Of a stretch of DNA of 63,916 nt, positions 13,174-45,562 are shown piece by piece. The translations under genes and the position numbers were made by a program. Source of the stretch: Ilyobacter polytropus (lineage in GTDB: Bacteria; Fusobacteriota; Fusobacteriia; Fusobacteriales; Fusobacteriaceae); assembly GCA_003246855.1 (NCBI GenBank), contig QKCP01000058.1, positions 1 to 63,916 on the forward strand. The letters are read 5' to 3'. Every line of letters begins with the position of its first letter. Positions within the stretch are counted from its first letter, which is position 1. The notes beneath the pieces were generated by a model, which was not told where the DNA came from, made no database searches, and saw only the letters and a program-made list of their open reading frames with translations.

Positions 13174-14409
13174 TTACTCCCCTTTATAATCAAAACAGCC
13201 CAAAATATTCACACCGCTAAACTTCGCTATGGCCTCCGTGTTTTCTTTCAAAAAATCCTGGTCATTTATGTTATCCCTATTGTTCAAGATTATCCCATTT
13301 ATTTTTATGCTGTTTTTTTCAAGGGCATACACAGTCAGCAAAGTATGGTTTATAGTGCCTAAAGTATTGTTCGACACTACTATAGCTTCGCAAGTTTCTC
13401 TGTACTCTACTAGCAGGTCTAAATAGGTGTAGTCATCCGTGTATGGAACCATAAGTCCGCCTGCACCCTCTATATAGACCACATCATTTTCTTCCAGCAG
13501 CTCTTCTATCCTAGCTTTTACTCTATCTACTTCGACTACCTCCCCGTCTACCCTTGCAGCAACGTGTGGCGAAAGTGGCTTGGTAAAAAAATATATATTT
13601 ACCTGGTCAACACTTTTCCCCATAAGTTCGGCATATGAGTGGGAATCCGATCCCTCCAGGTTTTCCCCGAAAGTTTCCGATCCAGTCTCAACAGGTTTCA
13701 AAATAGCCACCTTTTTCCCACTTGCAATCTCTTTTTTCAAAAGCTCCTTTGTAACGTAAGTTTTCCCAACCTCTGTATCCGTGCCGACTATGAAATAAAG
13801 TCTCCCTTTTTTAACCTGTTTTCTGCTTACTGAGTGGCACTTCCTGCACCTCGGCTCATAGTCCTCATCGGCCCCAACCAACACTAGTGGGTCGTTTTCT
13901 GACGCAGGAGTTCCATTTACCAACCTTTGCGACCTAGAAGCCGGGTTGCCGCAAACTACGCAGATGGCGTTGAATTTATCCACGTGTTCCGCTTTTGACA
14001 TTAGTACGTCCATAGGTTTGAAAGGCTCGCCCTTGAAATCCTGGTCAAGTCCGGCGATTATTACCCTTTTACCCATATCGGCAAGCTTATCCACAAATCC
14101 TACCAAAGCTTTTCCAAAAAACTGAGCCTCGTCTATGCCGATCACCTTGCTATCCCCGTAGAATTCAAAAAATATACTCTCCATCTCTTCTACGCTAGAA
14201 GCGGGTATACCCTCTATAAAGCTTCTGCTGTGCGAAGCCAGCCTACTCTCATCATATCTATTATCACTGGAATGCTTAAACGCAACGACTGTTTGGTTTG
14301 CATACTTAGCCCTTCTGAGCCTCCTTATGAGTTCCTCACTCTTCCCTGAAAACATCCCCCCAGTCACTACCTCTATCCACCCTGTTCCTTCTGTGACAAA
14401 CAAGTGCAT
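13174..14409 (-). CDS. thymidine kinase-dethiobiotin synthetase fusion
   Basis: 411 residues in two parts. Residues 1-195 are a type II thymidine kinase: GGMFSGKSEEL P-loop, GIDEAQF, and four zinc-site Cys (ICVVC about 150-153, CRKC 188-191). Residues 203-411 are a whole BioD: GTDTEVGKT P-loop at about 209-217, KPVETG, EGAGGLMVP and LGTINHTLL. No frameshift separates them. The ATG at 14409 has AGAGG eight bases upstream. The protein joins dTMP salvage to biotin synthesis, which have no known shared step beyond ATP use. No other bio gene is in the window. Confidence 0.9.
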   Translation of the reverse strand: MHLFVTEGTGWIEVVTGGMFSGKSEELIRRLRRAKYANQTVVAFKHSSDNRYDESRLASHSRSFIEGIPASSVEEMESIFFEFYGDSKVIGIDEAQFFGKALVGFVDKLADMGKRVIIAGLDQDFKGEPFKPMDVLMSKAEHVDKFNAICVVCGNPASRSQRLVNGTPASENDPLVLVGADEDYEPRCRKCHSVSRKQVKKGRLYFIVGTDTEVGKTYVTKELLKKEIASGKKVAILKPVETGSETFGENLEGSDSHSYAELMGKSVDQVNIYFFTKPLSPHVAARVDGEVVEVDRVKARIEELLEENDVVYIEGAGGLMVPYTDDYTYLDLLVEYRETCEAIVVSNNTLGTINHTLLTVYALEKNSIKINGIILNNRDNINDQDFLKENTEAIAKFSGVNILGCFDYKGE

Positions 14410-14440
14410 CCATACCACCTCTTAATTTTTTCAATTTTAA

Positions 14441-14469: not shown

Positions 14470-14581
14470 TCTTTATACGGGCTTATAAAAGCCTACCTAT
14501 TTTTTACAGGAGCTTTATTCTAGTTAAACAGTTATAGTTTAAAATAAGTGCATAGCAAGCATAATAGGGGGTGAAAAAATA

Positions 14582-14689
14582 ATGCAAAGAATAAACACTG
14601 TTGCTACCGAGCAGCTTCTGAAATGGGAGCACCTGCTCCAAGATGGTTTTATGGACATATTAATAGAGGCCCTTGACTTTATCTTCTAA
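14582..14689 (+). CDS. 35-residue ORF ending inside a terminator
   Basis: AGGGGGTG is followed ten bases later by an ATG and an open frame encoding MQRINTVATEQLLKWEHLLQ plus 15 more residues, rich in Leu and Ile toward the end. The stop codon lies in the loop of a strong plus-strand terminator. It is transcribed towards the uspA-like gene, so its RNA would meet that message. It could be a small protein or the coding part of a small RNA. No family recognised. Confidence 0.45.
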   Translation: MQRINTVATEQLLKWEHLLQDGFMDILIEALDFIF

Positions 14690-14717
14690 AAAAGTTTAAG
14701 GGCCTCTATTTTTTATG
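14663..14717 (+). terminator. terminator overlapping the small ORF
   Basis: Twelve-bp stem (14663-14674 with 14698-14709), extended inside by ACTTT/AAAGT, then a seven-T run on the plus strand. On the minus strand the T-run is weak, but it may also help end the uspA-like message. Confidence 0.75.
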
Positions 14718-35719: not shown

Positions 35720-37384
35720 CTAAATCTTCATTACTGTAAACTTAAATTCGCTTCCTTCGCCCTCTTTGGAGATAAGCTCTATCTCTCCACCGCACAACTT
35801 AACCAGTTCATATACTATAGATAGTCCTAGTCCTGTCCCGGCTACATTGCTGGTTCTGGCTTTGTCCACTCTATAAAAACGGTTGAAAATGTTTTTTTGT
35901 TCCTCTACTGGTATTCCCAATCCATTATCTTTTACGCTTATCTCGTATTTATCATCTTTTTCTACAAAATCGATATTTATGATAGGTTTATCTTTATCGT
36001 TATATACTATGGCGTTTTCAACGAGGTTTTTAAGTATACTACTGAGCTTCTCGAAATCAACGTTTATGTACTCCTGTTTATTTTGTAAGCTTACTTTGTA
36101 TATTAGCTCTGCATTCTTCTTTTCTATCTTGCTGTTTAATATTTTTTCAAGTTCCTCTTTCAACTTACTAAACTGTACATGATCTACGTTTAGAAGTTTT
36201 GTACTCTCTATCTTAGATATATTCAAAAAATCCATTATTATGTTTTCAAGTTTTTCGATATTGCTGTGAACTATCTTGAAAAACTGTTTTTTCATAAACT
36301 CATCTTTTTCCCCTTCTATGGCTATCAGATACCCTTTCACATTAGAAAGCGGGGTCTTTAATTCATGACTTACATTGCTTATGAAATTTCTTTGTATTTC
36401 CATTATTTCCCTGCTCTTACTTACATCTTTTAAGGTCACAAGGTAATGCTCCCTTAAACCGAGGTATTTCCCCTCCATGATATAGTGCTTGTTAATTTTA
36501 TTGAAATATATTTCTTCTTTTAGAGCGGTCTTTTTTTCCAGAAGCTTGTCTATGAAGTGTATTAGCTCTATATACTTTATTTTGTTATAATAGTGCCGAT
36601 CCTCTCCTTCAATAGACATAAGACCCAACATACTGTTATTGAGTATTATCTCTTTTCTCTTATTTATTACAAGTATCCCCATGTCAACTATGGATATTAT
36701 CTCCCTTAGTTTCTGCCTCTCATTTTCAAGCTTCACCATGTTTTTAAGGTTTTTGTTCTGCCAGTTTTTTACGACATCCCAAAATTCCTTTAAGAACTTA
36801 TCCCCCTCAACATCAATCCCGGTGGGTTTTACCTCATTGATTAGTATCTTCTTTATCTGCCCTAGCCTCTTATAAAGATAGTTCTTTAAATAAAACCTGT
36901 AGCTTATTACCACGAAGCTATTCAACACAGCAAAAAAGACTATATATATAAGTATGAGCTTGTACAGCTCTTTGTCAACATAAGCATAATCAGTGGCCAC
37001 CCGTATTATGAACTCGTCATTATACGGCACGGCGTAGTATGCCAGCTTTCTGCCGACTGACTCGCTCATCCTGATGTCGAAGCCCTCCTCTCCGGAGTAG
37101 GCTGCCCGCACTTCATCCCTGTATTTATGGGTTGCCAGTTCCTCTTCAAATCCCCTTTTTTCACTGTCATACAGCACGTCACCGTTTTTAGCTATCAGGG
37201 TAAATCTTCTTTGTACATTTTCCGCCACTATTTGGAAGTTTTCAGTACCGTTTTCGTCTATTACATTTCTTATTAAAAGTGCATCCCCTTTTAGTCCCTG
37301 CTTCACCAGTTGTGCGTTTAGATCTGATATTTTATTAATATTTCCGTAGATAAAAAGACACTCTAAAAAGAGTATCAAAATCAT
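35720..37384 (-). CDS. phoR: phosphate sensor histidine kinase
   Basis: 554 residues: membrane segment at 1-14, an extracytoplasmic domain of about 130 residues, second membrane segment about 143-163, PAS-like part, HisKA with NFISNVSHELKTPLSNVKGY, then N box NLVENAIVYNDKDKP, KDNGLGIPVEEQ and GTGLGLSIV. The 3' neighbour on the message is the end of the operon; phoB ends five bases before its start. Ribosome site weak, so translational coupling to phoB is likely. Many PhoR lack a large periplasmic loop; this one has one, so direct sensing is possible. Confidence 0.9.
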   Translation of the reverse strand: MILILFLECLFIYGNINKISDLNAQLVKQGLKGDALLIRNVIDENGTENFQIVAENVQRRFTLIAKNGDVLYDSEKRGFEEELATHKYRDEVRAAYSGEEGFDIRMSESVGRKLAYYAVPYNDEFIIRVATDYAYVDKELYKLILIYIVFFAVLNSFVVISYRFYLKNYLYKRLGQIKKILINEVKPTGIDVEGDKFLKEFWDVVKNWQNKNLKNMVKLENERQKLREIISIVDMGILVINKRKEIILNNSMLGLMSIEGEDRHYYNKIKYIELIHFIDKLLEKKTALKEEIYFNKINKHYIMEGKYLGLREHYLVTLKDVSKSREIMEIQRNFISNVSHELKTPLSNVKGYLIAIEGEKDEFMKKQFFKIVHSNIEKLENIIMDFLNISKIESTKLLNVDHVQFSKLKEELEKILNSKIEKKNAELIYKVSLQNKQEYINVDFEKLSSILKNLVENAIVYNDKDKPIINIDFVEKDDKYEISVKDNGLGIPVEEQKNIFNRFYRVDKARTSNVAGTGLGLSIVYELVKLCGGEIELISKEGEGSEFKFTVMKI

Positions 37385-37389
37385 AATGA

Positions 37390-38064
37390 CTATTTCTTTT
37401 CTTCTAATCTATACCCAACTCCTTTTACAGTCCGGATATCCTTCGCTATGGTTTTCAGCTTTTCCCTAAGCTTGGCTATGTAGATGTCAACGGACCTGTC
37501 TCCAGAATAATAATTAGACTGCCACACTAAGTCTAATATCCTCTCCCTCGTCATAACGAGCCCCTCGTTTTTCATTAAGCACTTCAAGAGGTCATACTCT
37601 TTTTTAGAGAGTTCCACTTCCTTCCCATCTTCATGTACTTCATGCTTGCTATCGTCTAGTACAACCGACTTGAACTTGTACTTTTTAGACTTATCTGTAT
37701 TTGTCTCCAAAAGTTTTTTCGAGCGTAGTACCAGCTCTCTTGGGTCAAAAGGTTTTCTCATATAATCATTTGCCCCTAAAGAAAGTCCGTCTAGCACATC
37801 GTCTATTTCAGTTTTGGCTGTGAGCATCACTATTTTTGGTTCGCCGTATTGTTGGGGCATATCCCTTATTATTTTAGTAAAATTTTTACCGTCAAGACTT
37901 GGAAGCATTATATCCAAGACAATCATTTCTGGCTTTAAATTTTTTACCTTTTTAAGGCCGTCAAGACCGTCAGAAGCAGAATAAACTTCGTATCCTTCTT
38001 TTTGAAAAAAATATACGATTAACTGCTGTATTTCCAGATCGTCTTCTACCACTAGTATTTTCAA
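37390..38064 (-). CDS. phoB: phosphate response regulator
   Basis: 224 residues. Receiver with VVEDDLEIQQ, phospho-acceptor Asp in VLDIMLPSLDG, MLTAKTE and RKPFDPRELVLR; C-terminal OmpR-type winged helix with DLVWQSNYYSGDRSVDIYIA and TVKGVGYRLE. TTG start after GGGGGAT. By position with pst and phoU it is PhoB, and should bind the 11-bp repeats in front of pstS2, pstS1 and pstC. Confidence 0.93.
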   Translation of the reverse strand: MKILVVEDDLEIQQLIVYFFQKEGYEVYSASDGLDGLKKVKNLKPEMIVLDIMLPSLDGKNFTKIIRDMPQQYGEPKIVMLTAKTEIDDVLDGLSLGANDYMRKPFDPRELVLRSKKLLETNTDKSKKYKFKSVVLDDSKHEVHEDGKEVELSKKEYDLLKCLMKNEGLVMTRERILDLVWQSNYYSGDRSVDIYIAKLREKLKTIAKDIRTVKGVGYRLEEKK

Positions 38065-38081: not shown

Positions 38082-38106
38082 AAACAGGAGCAGTGAAACA
38101 CTGCTC
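38082..38106 (-). terminator. hairpin between phoU and phoB
   Basis: Eight-bp stem GAGCAGTG/CACTGCTC with a three-base loop, then CTGTTTTT on the minus strand, ending just before the phoB ribosome site. Likely a partial terminator that lowers phoBR expression relative to pst. Confidence 0.6.
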
Positions 38107-38152: not shown

Positions 38153-38833
38153 CTATTTTTTAAGAGACACTATCTCTTTTTGCCTCATATTTTCTCCCTT
38201 GTATATATACACAAGTGATTTTGCGAGGTTCATTATTTTATCTGATATCCTTTCAACCTTGTATGAAATAAGTAGTATCTCCACAGCTAAGTCTAGGTAG
38301 CTCTCGTCTTTTCTAATTTTTTCCTTTACCTCTTCGATTATCTTAACCCTGTATTCATCTATCTCTTCATCTAGCCCGAACAGCATGTACACAGAACTCA
38401 AGTCCCTGCTGCTGAAAGCGTCTAGGTAGATATTGTATATCGAGTACACCTTGTCCGACATGGCTATTACAGATTTTATGTTGCTGTCTAATTTTATGTG
38501 TTGTGTATAGATTCTCTTTAAAAGTTTCAGGTTCCCCTTTAAGAGGTCGGCTATCCTCTCCAAAAACTTTGCTATATCCATGAACCCTACAAGTGATCTT
38601 AGGTCTGAGGCTGCAGGCTGGAACATTGCTATAGTCTGGATGCACTCTTCTCTTATCTCCACTTCAAGCAGGTTTATCTCCTCCTCAATAACCATGGTTT
38701 CTCCGTAAAGCTTGGTGTCAAACTCCTCTTTTTCGTAGATCTCCTTGCTTATTCTCATGACTCTTTCTATACTTTTAGACATATCCATAGTCTTTTTATC
38801 TATATTTTCTAAATGTTCCCTCAGGTTTTTCAT
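38153..38833 (-). CDS. phoU: phosphate uptake regulator PhoU
   Basis: 226 residues, all helical, with the repeated PhoU pattern: the first half has EEEINLLEVEIREECIQTIA and SDLRSLVGFMDIAKFLERIAD, the second EEIDEYRVKIIEEVK and LLISYKVERISDKIMNLAKS. It damps PhoR signalling and Pst uptake when phosphate is ample. GGGGGAAG precedes the ATG. Confidence 0.93.
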   Translation of the reverse strand: MKNLREHLENIDKKTMDMSKSIERVMRISKEIYEKEEFDTKLYGETMVIEEEINLLEVEIREECIQTIAMFQPAASDLRSLVGFMDIAKFLERIADLLKGNLKLLKRIYTQHIKLDSNIKSVIAMSDKVYSIYNIYLDAFSSRDLSSVYMLFGLDEEIDEYRVKIIEEVKEKIRKDESYLDLAVEILLISYKVERISDKIMNLAKSLVYIYKGENMRQKEIVSLKK

Positions 38834-38854: not shown

Positions 38855-39619
38855 TTATCCAAATTTACCAGTTATGTAATCTTCTGTTTTCTTGTTATTT
38901 GGCTTGGTGAATATGGTCTCGGTCTTGTCAAACTCTTCTACTACTCCTTGGTAAAAGAAAGCTGTGTAGTCCGATATTCTAGCCGCCTGCTGCATGTTAT
39001 GCGTAACTATTAATATTGTGTAGTCTTTTTCCAGTTCTCTTATAAGTTCTTCTATTTTGGCAGTAGAGATAGGGTCGAGTGCCGAGGTCGGCTCATCCAT
39101 CAAAAGTATCTCTGGTTCTACAGCTATAGCTCTTGCTATGCAGAGCCTCTGCTGCTGTCCCCCTGAAAGTCCCAATGCAGATTGATGCAGTTTATCCTTT
39201 ACCTCGTCCCAAAGTGCAACGGCCTTAAGCGAATTTTCCACTATTTCCATAAGTCTGTTTTTATCTTTTTCCCCGTGCAGCTTAGGTCCATATACTATAT
39301 TTTCATATATTGTTTTAGGAAATGGGTTAGGCCTTTGAAAAACCATTCCTATTTTTTTTCTTAACTCAACTATATCGTATTTTTTATCAAATATATTATT
39401 ACCATCCAATTTTATATTTCCTTCGTACACAGATGTATCTATAAGGTCGTTCATCCTGTTTATAGACCTTAAAAATGTTGACTTACCACAGCCAGATGGC
39501 CCAATTAATGCTGTGACCTTGTTTTTTTCTATTCCCATATTTATATTTTTCAAAGCTTGAAATTTTCCGTAATAAAAACTAAAGTTGTCAATCTCTAACC
39601 TTATATTGTTATTTTCCAT
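38855..39619 (-). CDS. pstB: phosphate ABC transporter ATPase
   Basis: 254 residues. Walker [21 protein letters not shown], signature [19 protein letters not shown], Walker [14 protein letters not shown] and switch His in LIVTHNMQQ. The asparagine-rich loop after Walker A is typical of PstB. GGGAGG precedes the ATG. Confidence 0.97.
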
Positions 39620-39636
39620 TATATCCTCCCAAAATT

Positions 39637-40554
39637 TTATCTGCTCTTGCTAAACTTATTCCTTATAAACGCCCCGACCAAGTTAAATCCTACAGTTATA
39701 CTTACCAAAACCAAAACCGTCCCGTTCATATACTCAACAGGCATATTAGGTACCTGGGTTGCTATTACATAAAGGTGGTAAGGTAGTGCCATTACCTGGT
39801 CCCATATTCCTTCAGGAAGGAATGGCAGATAAAATGCTGCTACTGTGAATAGTATTGGTGCCGTCTCTCCGGCAGCTCTACTTATACTCAAGATTATTCC
39901 TGTAAGTATTCCAGGTAAAGCTGCTGGGAGTACCACTCTCCATGTAGTTTCCCATCTTGTAGCACCAAGAGCAAGCGATGCCTGTCTTAGGTCTTTTGGT
40001 ATGGCAAGCAGTGCCTCTCTTGTAGCTGTTATTATTACAGGTAGACACATTATTCCAAGTGTCAGTGACCCTGATACTATAGATGACCCCAACCCAAGGA
40101 ATATTACGAATAAAGCGAGTCCGAACAAACCGTAAACTATACTAGGTATCCCAGCAAGGTTCACTATGGTGAGGTTTATTATTCTCCTAAACATGTTATC
40201 TTTGGAGTACTCCACCAGGTAGACACCTGTGAGCACTCCAAAAGGTACCGCCACAAATATCGTTCCCATTGTCAATATGAGGGTTCCTACTATTGTAGGG
40301 AAAATCCCCCCAGCCCTCATTCCGTCTTCTGGCATTTTGGTTAAAAATTCCCAGGATATAGCTGGCAAGCCTTTTATAAGAATATAGGAAAGTATAAACA
40401 CTACAGGTAGTATTGCAAGTAAGCCTATAGTTTTTATAAGGCCCTCTATTATTTTTTCTCCATTTCCTTTAAGTATGCTAAATGGTTTTTTCTCTTTAAC
40501 CGTTTCTTTTTTTTCTTCTATTTTCATTTCCACTCTCTCCACCAACTCTTTCAT
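39637..40554 (-). CDS. pstA: phosphate ABC transporter permease
   Basis: 305 residues: a charged, Lys/Glu-rich N-terminus of about 35 residues, then six membrane segments with the permease coupling motif [20 protein letters not shown] and [15 protein letters not shown]. Its start lies eight bases after the pstC stop. Membrane channel half of the Pst system. Confidence 0.95.
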
Positions 40555-40562
40555 CTTTCACC

Positions 40563-41441
40563 CTACCCCTTTGCAACTTTTCTGGATCTGTGTATAAAGT
40601 AATCCGCCAAAGTATTCGTTAAGAAACTTATCGCAAACAACACAAGCCCAATAGCGAAAAGTGCATAATAATGTGAGCTACCTTGCACAACTTCTCCCAT
40701 TTCCGCAGCTATGGTGGCCGTCATCGTTCTAACCGGCGTCAAAGGTCCAGCCTTAAATATAGGAGCATTTCCAGTAACCATAAGCACCGTCATCGTTTCA
40801 CCCATTATCCTTCCGAAACCAAGCATTATACCTGCAAATATTCCGGGAAATGCTGCCGGCAGGATAACATTGACTACAGTCTCTAGTTTATTCGCACCAA
40901 GAGCCAGTGAGGCTTGTTTATATGATTTGTCGAGAGCCCTTATGGCGTCGTCAGAGATGCTGACCATCGTAGGTATCGACATGAAAGCTAGCATTATTCC
41001 TCCTGTAAGCGCCGTAAGTCCTGTATCCAATCCAAAAATTTGCTTTATCGGACCTGATAGCACATAAAGTCCTATGTATCCTAGCACAACTGAAGGAAGG
41101 GCTGCCATTACCTCGATTATTACTTTTAAAGTCTCTCTTATTTTCGGGTTTGCATATTCTGCTATGTAAACTGCCGTTATTAAGCTAAGAGGCACTGATA
41201 TCAAAAGGGCTATTACAGTCACCCATATGCTCCCCATAAGAAGAGGTAGTAATCCGAATATTTCAGAAAGAGATATCCAAGATTTTCCAAAGAAAAATTC
41301 GATTCCTGAATGATGGCCGAAAAACTTCATGCTGTTTGTAAAGACAAACATAAATATCAGAAACACCATTAAAATGTTGAAACTCGCTATACCAAATATG
41401 GTATGCCTCATAAAATTATCCTTTAGTTTTCTAATATCCAT
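40563..41441 (-). CDS. pstC: phosphate ABC transporter permease
   Basis: 292 residues with six membrane segments, coupling motif [20 protein letters not shown] and GRIMGETMTVLMVTGNAP. AAGGAG precedes the ATG. It has its own Pho-type promoter (41489-41542) and is separated from pstS1 by a terminator, so its level can be set apart from the binding proteins. Confidence 0.95.
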   Translation of the reverse strand: MDIRKLKDNFMRHTIFGIASFNILMVFLIFMFVFTNSMKFFGHHSGIEFFFGKSWISLSEIFGLLPLLMGSIWVTVIALLISVPLSLITAVYIAEYANPKIRETLKVIIEVMAALPSVVLGYIGLYVLSGPIKQIFGLDTGLTALTGGIMLAFMSIPTMVSISDDAIRALDKSYKQASLALGANKLETVVNVILPAAFPGIFAGIMLGFGRIMGETMTVLMVTGNAPIFKAGPLTPVRTMTATIAAEMGEVVQGSSHYYALFAIGLVLFAISFLTNTLADYFIHRSRKVAKG

Positions 41442-41488: not shown

Positions 41489-41542
41489 ATTATATCCGTC
41501 TTTTGTTTACTCATTATTTATTCTATGTAAAAATTGTGTAAA
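41489..41542 (-). promoter_or_regulatory. Pho-type promoter of pstCAB
   Basis: On the minus strand, hexamers TTTACA, TTTACA, TAAATA and TAAACA follow each other with exactly five bases between, then five bases and NNNNTATAAT. No consensus -35 is present, as in activator-dependent Pho promoters. Span and -10 position are identical to the two other copies in the window. Confidence 0.8.
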
Positions 41543-41555
41543 CACCAAAGACGAG

Positions 41556-41583
41556 CAAAATAAAAAGGCCTCTTAGAGGCCCA
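41556..41583 (-). terminator. terminator between pstS1 and pstC
   Basis: Six-bp GC-only stem GGCCTC/GAGGCC with a three-base loop, followed on the minus strand by TTTTTATTTT. Confidence 0.75.
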
Positions 41584-41599
41584 CTTTTATTTTAACTTA

Positions 41600-42433
41600 T
41601 TATTTTACAGGTACGAATCCTTCTTTTGCAACTATAGCTTGTCCACTGTCCGAAAGCATGAATTCAACTAGTTCTTTTACTGTTCCCTCAAGATTTGTGT
41701 CTGCGTACCAGTAAACTCCTCTTGCGATCGGGTAAGTTTTGTTGGCTACATTTTCAGGAGTTGCTGTTATTCCATCTACAGAAACTGATTTTACTGTGTC
41801 ATCCATATACCCCATACCGATGTAAGCTATTGCTCCTTTAGATGATTTGATTTCTTGCTTTAGAGCTTCGTTTGAAGGTAGGTATAGAGTTCCTTCTCCG
41901 TACTCTTCAGTACCTTTCGAGTCTCCTTTTCTTAGCACGTCTTCTTTGAAGTAAGCGTGTGTTCCAGAAGATGAATCCCTAGATAAAACTACGATTTTTT
42001 CGTCATTTCCTCCAAGCTCTTTCCAGTTTGTAGTTTTCCCCATGAAGATATCTCTCAACTGGTCTTTTGAAAGGTTTGCCACTGGATTTTCAGAGTTTAC
42101 AATTACTGTTATCCCGTCGAATCCTATTGTTATCTCTTGTATATCGAGCCCTTCCTCTTTTGCCTGATCCCACTCTTTATCCTTCATCTGTCTAGATGCC
42201 ATAGCTACATCAACCGTTTTGTTTAGTTTACCCGCTATTCCTGTACCAGAACCTCCTCCAGTTACTGCTACTCTAGCTCCTTTGTTTTGCTTCATGAACT
42301 CTTCTGCCACCGCTTGGGATACGTTTAGTATTGTATCTGACCCTTTTAGTTGAACTACCTTGCTCTCTTTTTTAGGTCCACCACAAGCCATTAAAAATGC
42401 CGATATAACTACTGCCAATAAAATTTTTTTCAC
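41600..42433 (-). CDS. pstS: phosphate-binding lipoprotein PstS (copy 1)
   Basis: 277 residues. Signal ends in the lipobox LMACGG, so the mature protein is lipid-anchored. LKGSDTILNVSQAVAEEF, VTGGGSGTGIAGKLN, RDSSSGTHAYFKEDVLR and KGAIAYIGMGYMDD line the phosphate site. GTG start after GGAGGAG. Nearly the same sequence as the next copy after the signal peptide. Confidence 0.95.
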   Translation of the reverse strand: MKKILLAVVISAFLMACGGPKKESKVVQLKGSDTILNVSQAVAEEFMKQNKGARVAVTGGGSGTGIAGKLNKTVDVAMASRQMKDKEWDQAKEEGLDIQEITIGFDGITVIVNSENPVANLSKDQLRDIFMGKTTNWKELGGNDEKIVVLSRDSSSGTHAYFKEDVLRKGDSKGTEEYGEGTLYLPSNEALKQEIKSSKGAIAYIGMGYMDDTVKSVSVDGITATPENVANKTYPIARGVYWYADTNLEGTVKELVEFMLSDSGQAIVAKEGFVPVK

Positions 42434-42563
42434 TCGTACTCCTCCTTATAACATCTTATAAATTTTGCTTTTAGATAAATTTGCTGTATTTAGGGTTTTA
42501 TCGATACCCTTTTGTCACTTATTAGTATTATCTTTACTCAATTTTTACTGTTCTTACAAAGTT

Positions 42564-42617
42564 ATTATATAAACTCTCTGTTTACTAGTTATTTATTTTG
42601 TGTAAAAGTATTGTAAA
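42564..42617 (-). promoter_or_regulatory. Pho-type promoter of pstS1
   Basis: Minus-strand hexamers TTTACA, TTTACA, TAAATA, TAAACA and TTTATA, each five bases apart, the last overlapping TATAAT with the same offset as in the pstC copy. Length 54 bases, as in the other two. Confidence 0.8.
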
Positions 42618-42636
42618 TTTCTAAATGAACTTAAAT

Positions 42637-42668
42637 ATCAAAGGGATCGCCGCGGCGATCCCTTTGAT
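42637..42668 (-). terminator. 32-base palindrome after pstS2
   Basis: A perfect palindrome with 16-base arms and a GC-rich core (GGGATCGCCG and its complement). It is placed like a terminator between pstS2 and the pstS1 promoter, but the T-run beyond it is poor; it could serve as an RNA 3' end stabiliser. Confidence 0.65.
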
Positions 42669-42706
42669 TGAGATAGGATATTATTTATTTAAAGGAATTT
42701 TATGAA

Positions 42707-43591
42707 TTACTTTACAGGTACGAAACCTTCTTTTGCAACTAAAGCTTGTCCGTCTTTTGAAAGCATGTACTCAACTAGTTCTTTTACAGTTCCGTTAAGG
42801 TTTTTATCTGTGTACCAGTAAACTCCTCTTGCAATAGGATAAGTTTTGTTTGCTACGTTTTTAGGTGTTGCCGCTATTCCGTTTACAGAAACTGATTTTA
42901 CTGTATCATCCATATACCCCATACCAATATAAGCTATGGCCCCTTTAGACGCTTTTACCTCTTGCTTTAAAGCTTCGTTTGAAGGCAGGTATAAAGCGTT
43001 TCCACTGTACTCTTCAGTACCTTTTGAGTTACCTTTTCTAAGCACGTCTTCTTTGAAATAAGCATGTGTTCCAGAAGATGAATCCCTAGATAAAACTATG
43101 ATTTTTTCGTCATGTCCGCCAAACTCTTTCCAGTTTGTAGCTTTCCCCATGAAGATATCTCTTAATTGGTCTTTTGAAAGATTTTTAACAGGGTTATCTT
43201 TGTTTACAACTACTGTTATCCCGTCGAATCCTATTGTTATCTCTTGAATGTCAAGTCCTACTTCTTTAGACTTGGCCCACTCTTTAGACTTCATCTGTCT
43301 AGACGCCATGGCTATATCCACTGTTTTGTTTAGTTTAGCTGCTATTCCTGTACCAGAACCTCCTCCAGTTACTGCTACTCTAGCTCCTTTGTTTTGTTTC
43401 ATGAAATTTTCTGCCACTGCTTGAGATACGTTTAATATCGTATCCGATCCCTTTAATTGTATTACCTCTGTTTTTTTCTTACCGAACAAACTTTTAAAAG
43501 AAATCGCTGACGCTTCCTGAGTCGAGATAGCAAACCCAGCTGCTAAAATCAATGCTGATGACAATACTTTTTTAAATTTCGTTTTTAACAT
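42707..43591 (-). CDS. pstS: phosphate-binding protein PstS (copy 2, soluble)
   Basis: 294 residues. The N-terminus is a Sec signal with an Ala-x-Ala end (about TQEASA at 25-30) and no lipobox Cys, so the mature protein should be free in the periplasm. After that it carries LKGSDTILNVSQAVAENF, VTGGGSGTGIAAKLN and RDSSSGTHAYFKEDVLR, close to copy 1. Cargo site residues are the same. First gene of the regulon, with GGAGG upstream. Confidence 0.95.
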   Translation of the reverse strand: MLKTKFKKVLSSALILAAGFAISTQEASAISFKSLFGKKKTEVIQLKGSDTILNVSQAVAENFMKQNKGARVAVTGGGSGTGIAAKLNKTVDIAMASRQMKSKEWAKSKEVGLDIQEITIGFDGITVVVNKDNPVKNLSKDQLRDIFMGKATNWKEFGGHDEKIIVLSRDSSSGTHAYFKEDVLRKGNSKGTEEYSGNALYLPSNEALKQEVKASKGAIAYIGMGYMDDTVKSVSVNGIAATPKNVANKTYPIARGVYWYTDKNLNGTVKELVEYMLSKDGQALVAKEGFVPVK

Positions 43592-43633
43592 GTTTCTTGA
43601 TTCCTCCTTGTTTTCTTTATTGTTTACAAGGAG

Positions 43634-43687
43634 ATTATACAGAACACTTGTAAATCAGATATTTAGAGCTGGTAAAAAAAAGGTAAA
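43634..43687 (-). promoter_or_regulatory. Pho-type promoter of pstS2
   Basis: Minus-strand hexamers TTTACC, TTTACC, TAAATA, TTTACA and TCTGTA, each five bases apart, the last overlapping TATAAT. The array begins one base after the stop codon of the TtcA-like gene upstream. Confidence 0.8.
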
Positions 43688-44635
43688 CTAATCAAGTAGA
43701 TCTTTTATGCTCTTAAAAATTACACTCCTGATCTCTGGGTTTTCTTCGGCAAGTCCTTTTACCAGGTTCTTTACCTTAAGCCTTCTCGAGTTTTTATCTG
43801 TCTCGTATGGACAGCTAGACTTCAATATCGGCAGCCTGAGTTTTCTCGCATATCTGATTATGGTATCCTCTTCTACGTAAGCAAGCGGCCTTATGACCCT
43901 CAAGTCGTAGTCGTCTGAGTGGTATGACGGTTTCATCACATTTCTGTTCCCCTGATAAAACACATTCATAAGGAAGGTCTCCACTATGTCATCCTTATGA
44001 TGTCCAAGGGCAAGCTTATTTATATTTTTTTCCTTCATAATCCTGTAGAGTACGCCTCTTCTCATCCTGGCACACATAAAGCACGGATTCTTTGCCTTTT
44101 TCTCCTCAAACACTACCTCTTTTATGTTGGTCTCTTCTACATAAAGTTCAAGCCCGAGTCTTTTGACGTATTCCCTTACGTATTCCAGTTCCCCTTCCAT
44201 TTTTTTATAGTGTACATGCACCGGGATTATGTCAAAATCAAAGTTCACTATATTTTTTATTCTCACCAGAGAATTCAGGGTGCTCAGACTATCCTTGCCG
44301 CCGGAGATCCCAACAGCTATCCTGTCACCGGGCTCTACCATGTTGTGTGCGTGCATCGCCTTCCCTATAGGATTCCACAGTGACTTGTTAAACCCCTTGC
44401 TCTCTATATAGGAGAGTATCTCCCTCTTGTCCATATTTTTGAACTCAACTCTTATCCCTGTTAGTTTTTCTATGCTTTTTGCCATTTTCAGTCTCTTGCT
44501 GCTACCAATGTCAAAGCATATTTCAAAACCTTCTTTTTTGTTGCTTATTTTTAAGCTATCATCTTCCACAATAAAAGAGTACCCTTCCGCCTCTTTTCCA
44601 TCTAATTCATAGATATCTTCTATATCAAAAACCAT
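43688..44635 (-). CDS. TtcA-like PP-loop tRNA thiolation protein with extra N-terminal domain
   Basis: 315 residues. PP-loop GISGGKDSLSTL at about 110-121, the CxxC of CFMCARMRRGVLY and KLALGHHKDDIVETFLMN match TtcA, which makes 2-thiocytidine in tRNA with an Fe-S cluster; a third Cys is in SSCPYETD. The first 85 residues have no counterpart in TtcA and were not recognised. AGGGGAT precedes the ATG. Lies six bases from its paralogue. Confidence 0.82.
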   Translation of the reverse strand: MVFDIEDIYELDGKEAEGYSFIVEDDSLKISNKKEGFEICFDIGSSKRLKMAKSIEKLTGIRVEFKNMDKREILSYIESKGFNKSLWNPIGKAMHAHNMVEPGDRIAVGISGGKDSLSTLNSLVRIKNIVNFDFDIIPVHVHYKKMEGELEYVREYVKRLGLELYVEETNIKEVVFEEKKAKNPCFMCARMRRGVLYRIMKEKNINKLALGHHKDDIVETFLMNVFYQGNRNVMKPSYHSDDYDLRVIRPLAYVEEDTIIRYARKLRLPILKSSCPYETDKNSRRLKVKNLVKGLAEENPEIRSVIFKSIKDLLD

Positions 44636-44640
44636 CTTAA

Positions 44641-45453
44641 CTATCCCCTGTCTTTATCGTTTTTATTTCCCCTGGTGTACCCTAAAATGTAATCCAGGTT
44701 TATATTTTTCATCGAGTTGAATATACTCTGCTTTATGTTCGGATTTTTTTCCTCTAGGCTCTTCAAAAGAAGCTTTATTTCTTTTCTTTTGGAATCGGTC
44801 TTATTCCCTTCCACCGGGCACCCGCAGCTCATCGGCTTTATGCCGTTGTTCTTGGTATAGTTTATTATATCACTCTCTTTGATGTACACAAGTGGCCTTA
44901 TCAATTCTAGCTGCCCGCTGGTTGAGCCAACTTTGGGCTTCATGGTCTTTACTGTACCTGCATAAAACATGTTTATAAGCACAGTTTCCACAATATCATC
45001 AAAATGATGCCCTAGGGCGAGTTTATTGCAACCTAACTCCTCAACCTTCTTATAAAGTACTCCTCTTCTCATCTTAGCACATAAAAAACAAGGGCTATCC
45101 GGGTCCTCGTTGAAGGCTATCTCCCACACATTGGAGTCAAACACCTCGCATGGTATCTCCAACTCCTCTAGGTTTTTTTTGAATTGATCCAAGTCTGTAT
45201 CGTCAAACCCTGGGTTCATTGATATAAAAACCAGCTCAAAATTCCTAGTTTTATCCCTTTTCAGTTCTTGAAAAAGTTTGCACAAAAGCAGGCTGTCCTT
45301 GCCTCCAGATACCCCAACCGCAATCTTGTCACCCTCCTGCACCAGGTCAAAATCCTTGACAGCTTTCACGAATTTTGTCCATATTTTTTTTCTATATGTC
45401 GTCCTAAGGCTCTCTTGAACCAGTTCTCCCTTTTTTTTCTCAATATTTCCCAT
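44641..45453 (-). CDS. TtcA-family tRNA 2-thiocytidine synthase-like
   Basis: 270 residues. GVSGGKDSLLLCKL P-loop, CFLCAKMRRGVLYKKV, KLALGHHFDDIVETVLINMF and a later MSCGCPVEGN, giving the three cluster Cys of TtcA. Of the tandem pair this is the nearer to canonical TtcA in length. Two ATG codons follow GGAGGT; the second (45453) has the better distance. Confidence 0.85.
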   Translation of the reverse strand: MGNIEKKKGELVQESLRTTYRKKIWTKFVKAVKDFDLVQEGDKIAVGVSGGKDSLLLCKLFQELKRDKTRNFELVFISMNPGFDDTDLDQFKKNLEELEIPCEVFDSNVWEIAFNEDPDSPCFLCAKMRRGVLYKKVEELGCNKLALGHHFDDIVETVLINMFYAGTVKTMKPKVGSTSGQLELIRPLVYIKESDIINYTKNNGIKPMSCGCPVEGNKTDSKRKEIKLLLKSLEEKNPNIKQSIFNSMKNINLDYILGYTRGNKNDKDRG

Positions 45454-45562
45454 GAACATGCTACCTCCATATACTTATAAAAATCATATAATTTTATCAT
45501 ATAATTTTAAAAATATGAAGTATTTTCTATCTTGCAACTCAAGAATCTTTTCAAGCTATCTC

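Follow-up and report, generated by a model that had tools for sequence, protein, structure and literature searches.

A candidate Pho box at the pst promoters of Ilyobacter polytropus and other Fusobacteriaceae

We analyzed a 63,916-nt stretch of Ilyobacter polytropus DNA (contig QKCP01000058.1, referred to below as the window), the minus strand of which carries promoter arrays of one design before pstS1, pstS2 and pstC. These arrays very probably represent a PhoB/PhoP-type Pho box that is common to Fusobacteriaceae and that lies before phosphate-uptake and -scavenging genes. Pho boxes are already known in other bacteria, and what is new for elements of this kind is the fusobacterial lineage; a search of the open-access literature, with subscription papers and RegPrecise outside its scope, found no earlier report joining Fusobacteria with a Pho box. 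The analysis provides a computationally tested sequence definition of a phosphate-starvation operator for Fusobacteriaceae, and makes the Pho regulon predictable in many fusobacterial genomes. Likely members are pst and genes for a Na/Pi cotransporter, alkaline phosphatase, the uptake of phosphonate and of glycerol phosphate, GDPD and pyrophosphatase.

Arrays and genes of the pst-pho cluster

The three arrays are as follows, with ranks taken from the own-genome profile search described below.

43634-43687, minus strand: array before pstS1; half-sites 43687-43682, 43676-43671, 43665-43660 and 43654-43649; -10 TATAAT at 43639-43634; rank 3
42564-42617, minus strand: array before pstS2; half-sites 42617-42612, 42606-42601, 42595-42590 and 42584-42579; -10 TATAAT at 42569-42564; rank 2
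41489-41542, minus strand: array before pstC (pstCAB-phoU unit); half-sites 41542-41537, 41531-41526, 41520-41515 and 41509-41504; -10 TATAAT at 41494-41489; rank 1

The units in all three arrays read TTTAC(A/C), TTTAC(A/C), TAAATA and TWWACA at an 11-bp period (columns 1, 12, 23 and 34). A Pho box is recognized by at least two direct repeats at this period, and four are present in each of the three arrays as well as in relatives; it is also recognized by its location in place of the -35 element just 5' of the -10, which is where the pstC, pstS2 and pstS1 arrays are found. As the first-pass annotation had described, each span is exactly 54 bp with TATAAT at columns 49-54, beginning nine bases past the fourth unit, and its statement that a consensus -35 is lacking is confirmed by the absence of a TTGACA-like hexamer 16-18 bp from the three TATAAT sites. 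Its five-fold array, on the other hand, has to be reduced to a four-fold one. Specifically, column information from 25 training and own arrays and from 32 out-of-sample arrays amounts to 0.19-0.28 bits per column in columns 45-48, the supposed fifth repeat, versus 0.77-1.39 in the four units, and the fifth repeat was thus rejected as unconserved. The same two sets gave averages of 0.12-0.39 bits per column for the five-base spacers and about 0.9 for the -10, with no extra conserved unit 5' of the four. The -10 keeps the identical offset in 23 of the 25 arrays of the training-and-own set and in 27 of the 32 out-of-sample ones. Overall, the lineage exhibits two mild peculiarities: the third half-site consistently departs from the consensus (TTWATA), and the gap to the -10 is fixed at 9 nt.

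The genes follow each other on the minus strand in the order pstS1, pstS2, pstC, pstA, pstB, phoU, response regulator and sensor kinase.

42707-43591, minus strand: pstS1, phosphate-binding protein; TIGR02136 above cut-off; signal peptide without lipobox
42637-42668, minus strand: palindromic terminator-like stem between pstS1 and pstS2, before the pstS2 array; 14-bp stem, weak T tail
41600-42433, minus strand: pstS2, phosphate-binding protein; TIGR02136 above cut-off; lipobox LMAC
41566-41582, minus strand: terminator-like stem between pstS2 and the pstC array; good T tail
40563-41441, minus strand: pstC; TIGR02138 above cut-off
39637-40554, minus strand: pstA; TIGR00974 above cut-off
38855-39619, minus strand: pstB; TIGR00972 above cut-off
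38153-38833, minus strand: phoU; TIGR02135 best match, slightly below cut-off
38088-38106, minus strand: terminator-like stem between phoU and phoB
37390-38064, minus strand: PhoB/PhoP-type response regulator; best match TIGR02154 (PhoB), below the equivalog cut-off; receiver and Trans_reg_C domains
35720-37384, minus strand: PhoR/PnpS-type sensor kinase; best matches PnpS and PhoR, below cut-offs

We are highly confident that the arrays are Pho boxes, each a predicted binding site of the response regulator encoded downstream at 37390-38064. This assignment is made because of the sequence of the arrays, their spacing, conservation and genome-wide specificity, and their association with phosphate genes. 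The terminators between units may possibly give rise to a graded output, as was put forward in the first-pass annotation. Note that the two PstS proteins differ in their export signals (no lipobox in PstS1, a lipobox in PstS2) and that the second PstS of one relative (G013) is also lipoprotein-like. Two neighboring genes coding for PP-loop ATPases (PF01171; window 43688-45459, minus strand) are located directly 5' of the pstS1 array; the nearer of the two has its stop codon immediately next to the array.

Profile searches of the genome and its relatives

We searched the organism's own genome (2.49 Mb, 167 contigs) with a sequence-only profile built from 22 pstS promoters of relatives, with the own genome left out. 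As this profile derives only from other genomes, the search constitutes a non-circular test of the arrays. The three pst arrays occupy the first three ranks in the whole genome (pstC, E 4e-6; pstS2, E 1e-4; pstS1, E 4.6e-4; these and all other Infernal E-values here are rough), followed by window positions 14497-14545 on the plus strand (E 6.5e-4) and by position 3512 of contig C30, which is directly 5' of a gene coding for a Na+/Pi cotransporter (PF02690; E 0.004). There is a clear gap after rank 5, with rank 6 dropping to E 0.14, and when the window was searched with filters off four sites alone exceeded background. A control profile reversed end to end had no matches in the own genome, and none of its matches across 41 genomes fell below E 2.6e-3; the true profile had 55 matches at E ≤ 1e-3, about 20 of them training sites. 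In the own-genome search, where only the best candidates were scored and weak sites may be missed, no array was detected before phoB and no site before the second Na/Pi cotransporter gene (contig C63) was among the matches listed.

These ranks, together with the phosphate genes that follow the sites in the own genome and in relatives, strongly support the reading of a Pho operator, and the array is not found at many unrelated genes, there being five clear sites in 2.49 Mb. The first-pass annotation had also expected matches before phosphatase or other phosphate genes. This is what is observed in relatives; in the own genome it is true of the Na+/Pi cotransporter but not of a phosphatase, as an alkaline phosphatase gene (PF00245) is absent from it. 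Since the own genome has only five sites, the association with phosphate genes rests mostly on relatives. A further own-genome candidate before a histidine phosphatase ORF (locus L007, 1501-1554; contig C82, position 12051) matches the pattern with three mismatches, has no profile score and was set aside as a weak candidate only.

The fourth-ranking site lies before a small ORF.

14492-14545, plus strand: fourth array in the window; units CCTACC, TTTACA, TTTATT and TAAACA, -10 TAAAAT; profile match covers 14497-14545
14582-14689, plus strand: 35-aa ORF MQRINTVATEQLLKWEHLLQDGFMDILIEALDFIF with Shine-Dalgarno-like GGGGGTG; overlapped by a strong terminator hairpin at about 14662-14709

The 35-aa ORF exhibited no significant match in 40 relatives and no Pfam match. 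We tentatively propose that this array could drive a phosphate-starvation-induced transcript of ~160 nt, giving a 35-aa protein or a small RNA, which would be a Pho-regulon member without known relatives. Nearby, a 414-aa ORF (window 13174-14418, minus strand) combines thymidine kinase (PF00265) with an AAA_26 domain (PF13500) that resembles dethiobiotin synthetase.

When the family is considered, which includes Propionigenium maris and, among the close relatives, Cetobacterium MAGs, nearly every member that has a close PstS carries the same array 5' of pstS. Out-of-sample sites before pstC were HMM-verified in 11 loci, as a separate array either 3' of pstS or divergent from it. Other out-of-sample sites precede genes coding for alkaline phosphatase in six relatives (G003, G004, G006, G012, G016 and G024), Na/Pi cotransporter in four (G004, G011, G013 and G023) in addition to the own genome, UgpA-like permease in two (G016 and G021) and PhnS2 2-aminoethylphosphonate-binding proteins in two (G007 and G016), with single cases before GDPD (G023), a pyrophosphatase-like ORF (G012) and a His_Phos_2 protein (G018). 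Overall, in the own genome and in relatives, and with the reversed profile as control, the sites lie before phosphate-acquisition genes and not broadly elsewhere. Genomes of the sister family that are devoid of pst have 0-3 weak matches each (best E 6.7e-4), and there are no profile matches in the three family members that lack a PstS match. Four weaker matches in relatives had no phosphate gene directly 3' and are probably noise. Many relatives, represented by eight loci, have pstS and pstC in divergent orientation, and the intergenic region between the two genes holds a back-to-back pair of Pho arrays.

The exact triplication that the first-pass annotation had singled out amounts to one array per transcription unit, a rule followed family-wide with separate arrays for pstS and pstC, together with a lineage-specific duplication of pstS. 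G013 has the three-array arrangement of the window (pstS, pstS, pstC). In the PstS tree the own S1 and S2 are sisters, while the second PstS of G013 groups with P. maris, so that the two tandem pairs stand apart. These results indicate that one array per transcription unit is a family habit and that the pstS duplications are local.

Alternative explanations of the arrays

The arrays might instead be bound by a different OmpR-family regulator, such as a VicR- or ResD-like one, that also controls phosphate genes. Direct repeats are common targets of such regulators, and with the window's regulator and kinase both below their curated equivalog cut-offs, binding by another member of the family could in principle occur. 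However, the sites are mostly at phosphate genes and are weak or missing where pst is absent, and the phoBR-like pair, with its best matches to PhoB and PnpS/PhoR, shares the cluster with pst and the arrays. We consider this alternative quite improbable.

We give almost no credence to the idea that the similarity of the arrays is a mere by-product of tandem duplication of pstS along with its promoter, even with PstS2 being 82% identical to PstS1 and its sister in the tree. The repeat units are identical at 24/24 positions between pstC and pstS2 and at 20/24 between each of these and pstS1, and repeats plus -10 agree at 26-30 of 30 positions between array pairs, whereas spacer identity is 10/24, 4/24 and 6/24, which is near chance. 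Conservation of the repeats while the spacers diverged indicates that the units are under constraint, and is unlike recent copying. Furthermore, pstC is unrelated to pstS and yet has the most typical array, and other genera have this array in conserved form as well.

Finally, a chance pattern would be conceivable in intergenic DNA of about 74% A+T with AT-rich units, but it has a negligible probability as all three arrays score 28/28 against 20-23/28 in AT-rich random windows (best 23/28 in 40 of these and 22/28 in 40 third-order-Markov windows; a comparison that alone is partly circular, the pattern being derived from these very arrays), and as the relatives-only profile still placed them first to third with an empty reversed control.

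Proposed regulation and comparison with known Pho boxes

Regarding the arrays as Pho boxes, a mechanism can be proposed. It takes the binding of the protein, its dependence on phosphorylation, the recruitment of polymerase and the starts of transcripts by inference from the OmpR/PhoB family. Under phosphate shortage, the sensor kinase would phosphorylate the response regulator (37390-38064), two dimers of which would bind head-to-tail on the four 11-bp half-sites TTTACA, TTTACA, TTWATA and TTWACA that stand in for the -35 element. Once bound, the regulator would bring sigma-70-type RNA polymerase to the -10, which lies nine bases past the last half-site. An array of its own is present at each phosphate-uptake transcription unit found, namely pstS1, pstS2 and pstCAB-phoU and, elsewhere, one of the two Na+/Pi cotransporter genes.

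E. coli, B. subtilis and Streptomyces are among the bacteria with established Pho boxes of 11-nt direct repeats, and the definition of the PhoB/PhoP type by such repeats and its sigma contact have been reviewed (PMC4415409). The E. coli pstS Pho box, with half-sites CTGTCATAAAA CTGTCATATTC CTTACATATAA CTGTCACC, is like the window arrays in having four half-sites at an 11-bp period that replace the -35 element, with units 1, 2 and 4 strong and the third deviant (CTTACA). Thus, the four-half-site layout and a deviant third half-site are both seen again in a distant phylum. There are also several differences. For example, the E. coli PhoB half-site core is CTGTCA versus TTTACA in the window, and in E. 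coli phoA there are 11 nt from the last hexamer to TATAGT, which we take to be its -10, versus 9 in the window arrays. E. coli also has one pst operon, whereas the window has pstS1, pstS2 and pstC with one array each. The PhoP box of B. subtilis consists of TT(A/C/T)ACA repeats at an 11-bp period, so its half-site is near-identical to that of the window, and four core-region repeats are likewise located 5' of a sigma-A -10; it belongs to another phylum, and the third unit of the fusobacterial arrays is consistently TTWATA.

Arrays of TTTACA-type units at an 11-bp period are also present in an Omnitrophota MAG just 5' of pstS, and in a Bacteroidota MAG 5' of a response regulator gene that is followed by pstS, although in these two MAGs of other phyla a TATAAT at the fusobacterial offset is weaker or not clear. 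The sequence type is consequently not exclusive to Fusobacteriaceae. The first-pass annotation's operator for this lineage holds across the family, but is shared in type with these MAGs and in layout with E. coli pstS. Finally, in regards to the window regulator itself, it is 33% identical to E. coli PhoB, and its recognition-helix region reads DRSVDIYIAKLRE where E. coli has DRTVDVHIRRLRK, a difference that would be compatible with an altered base preference.
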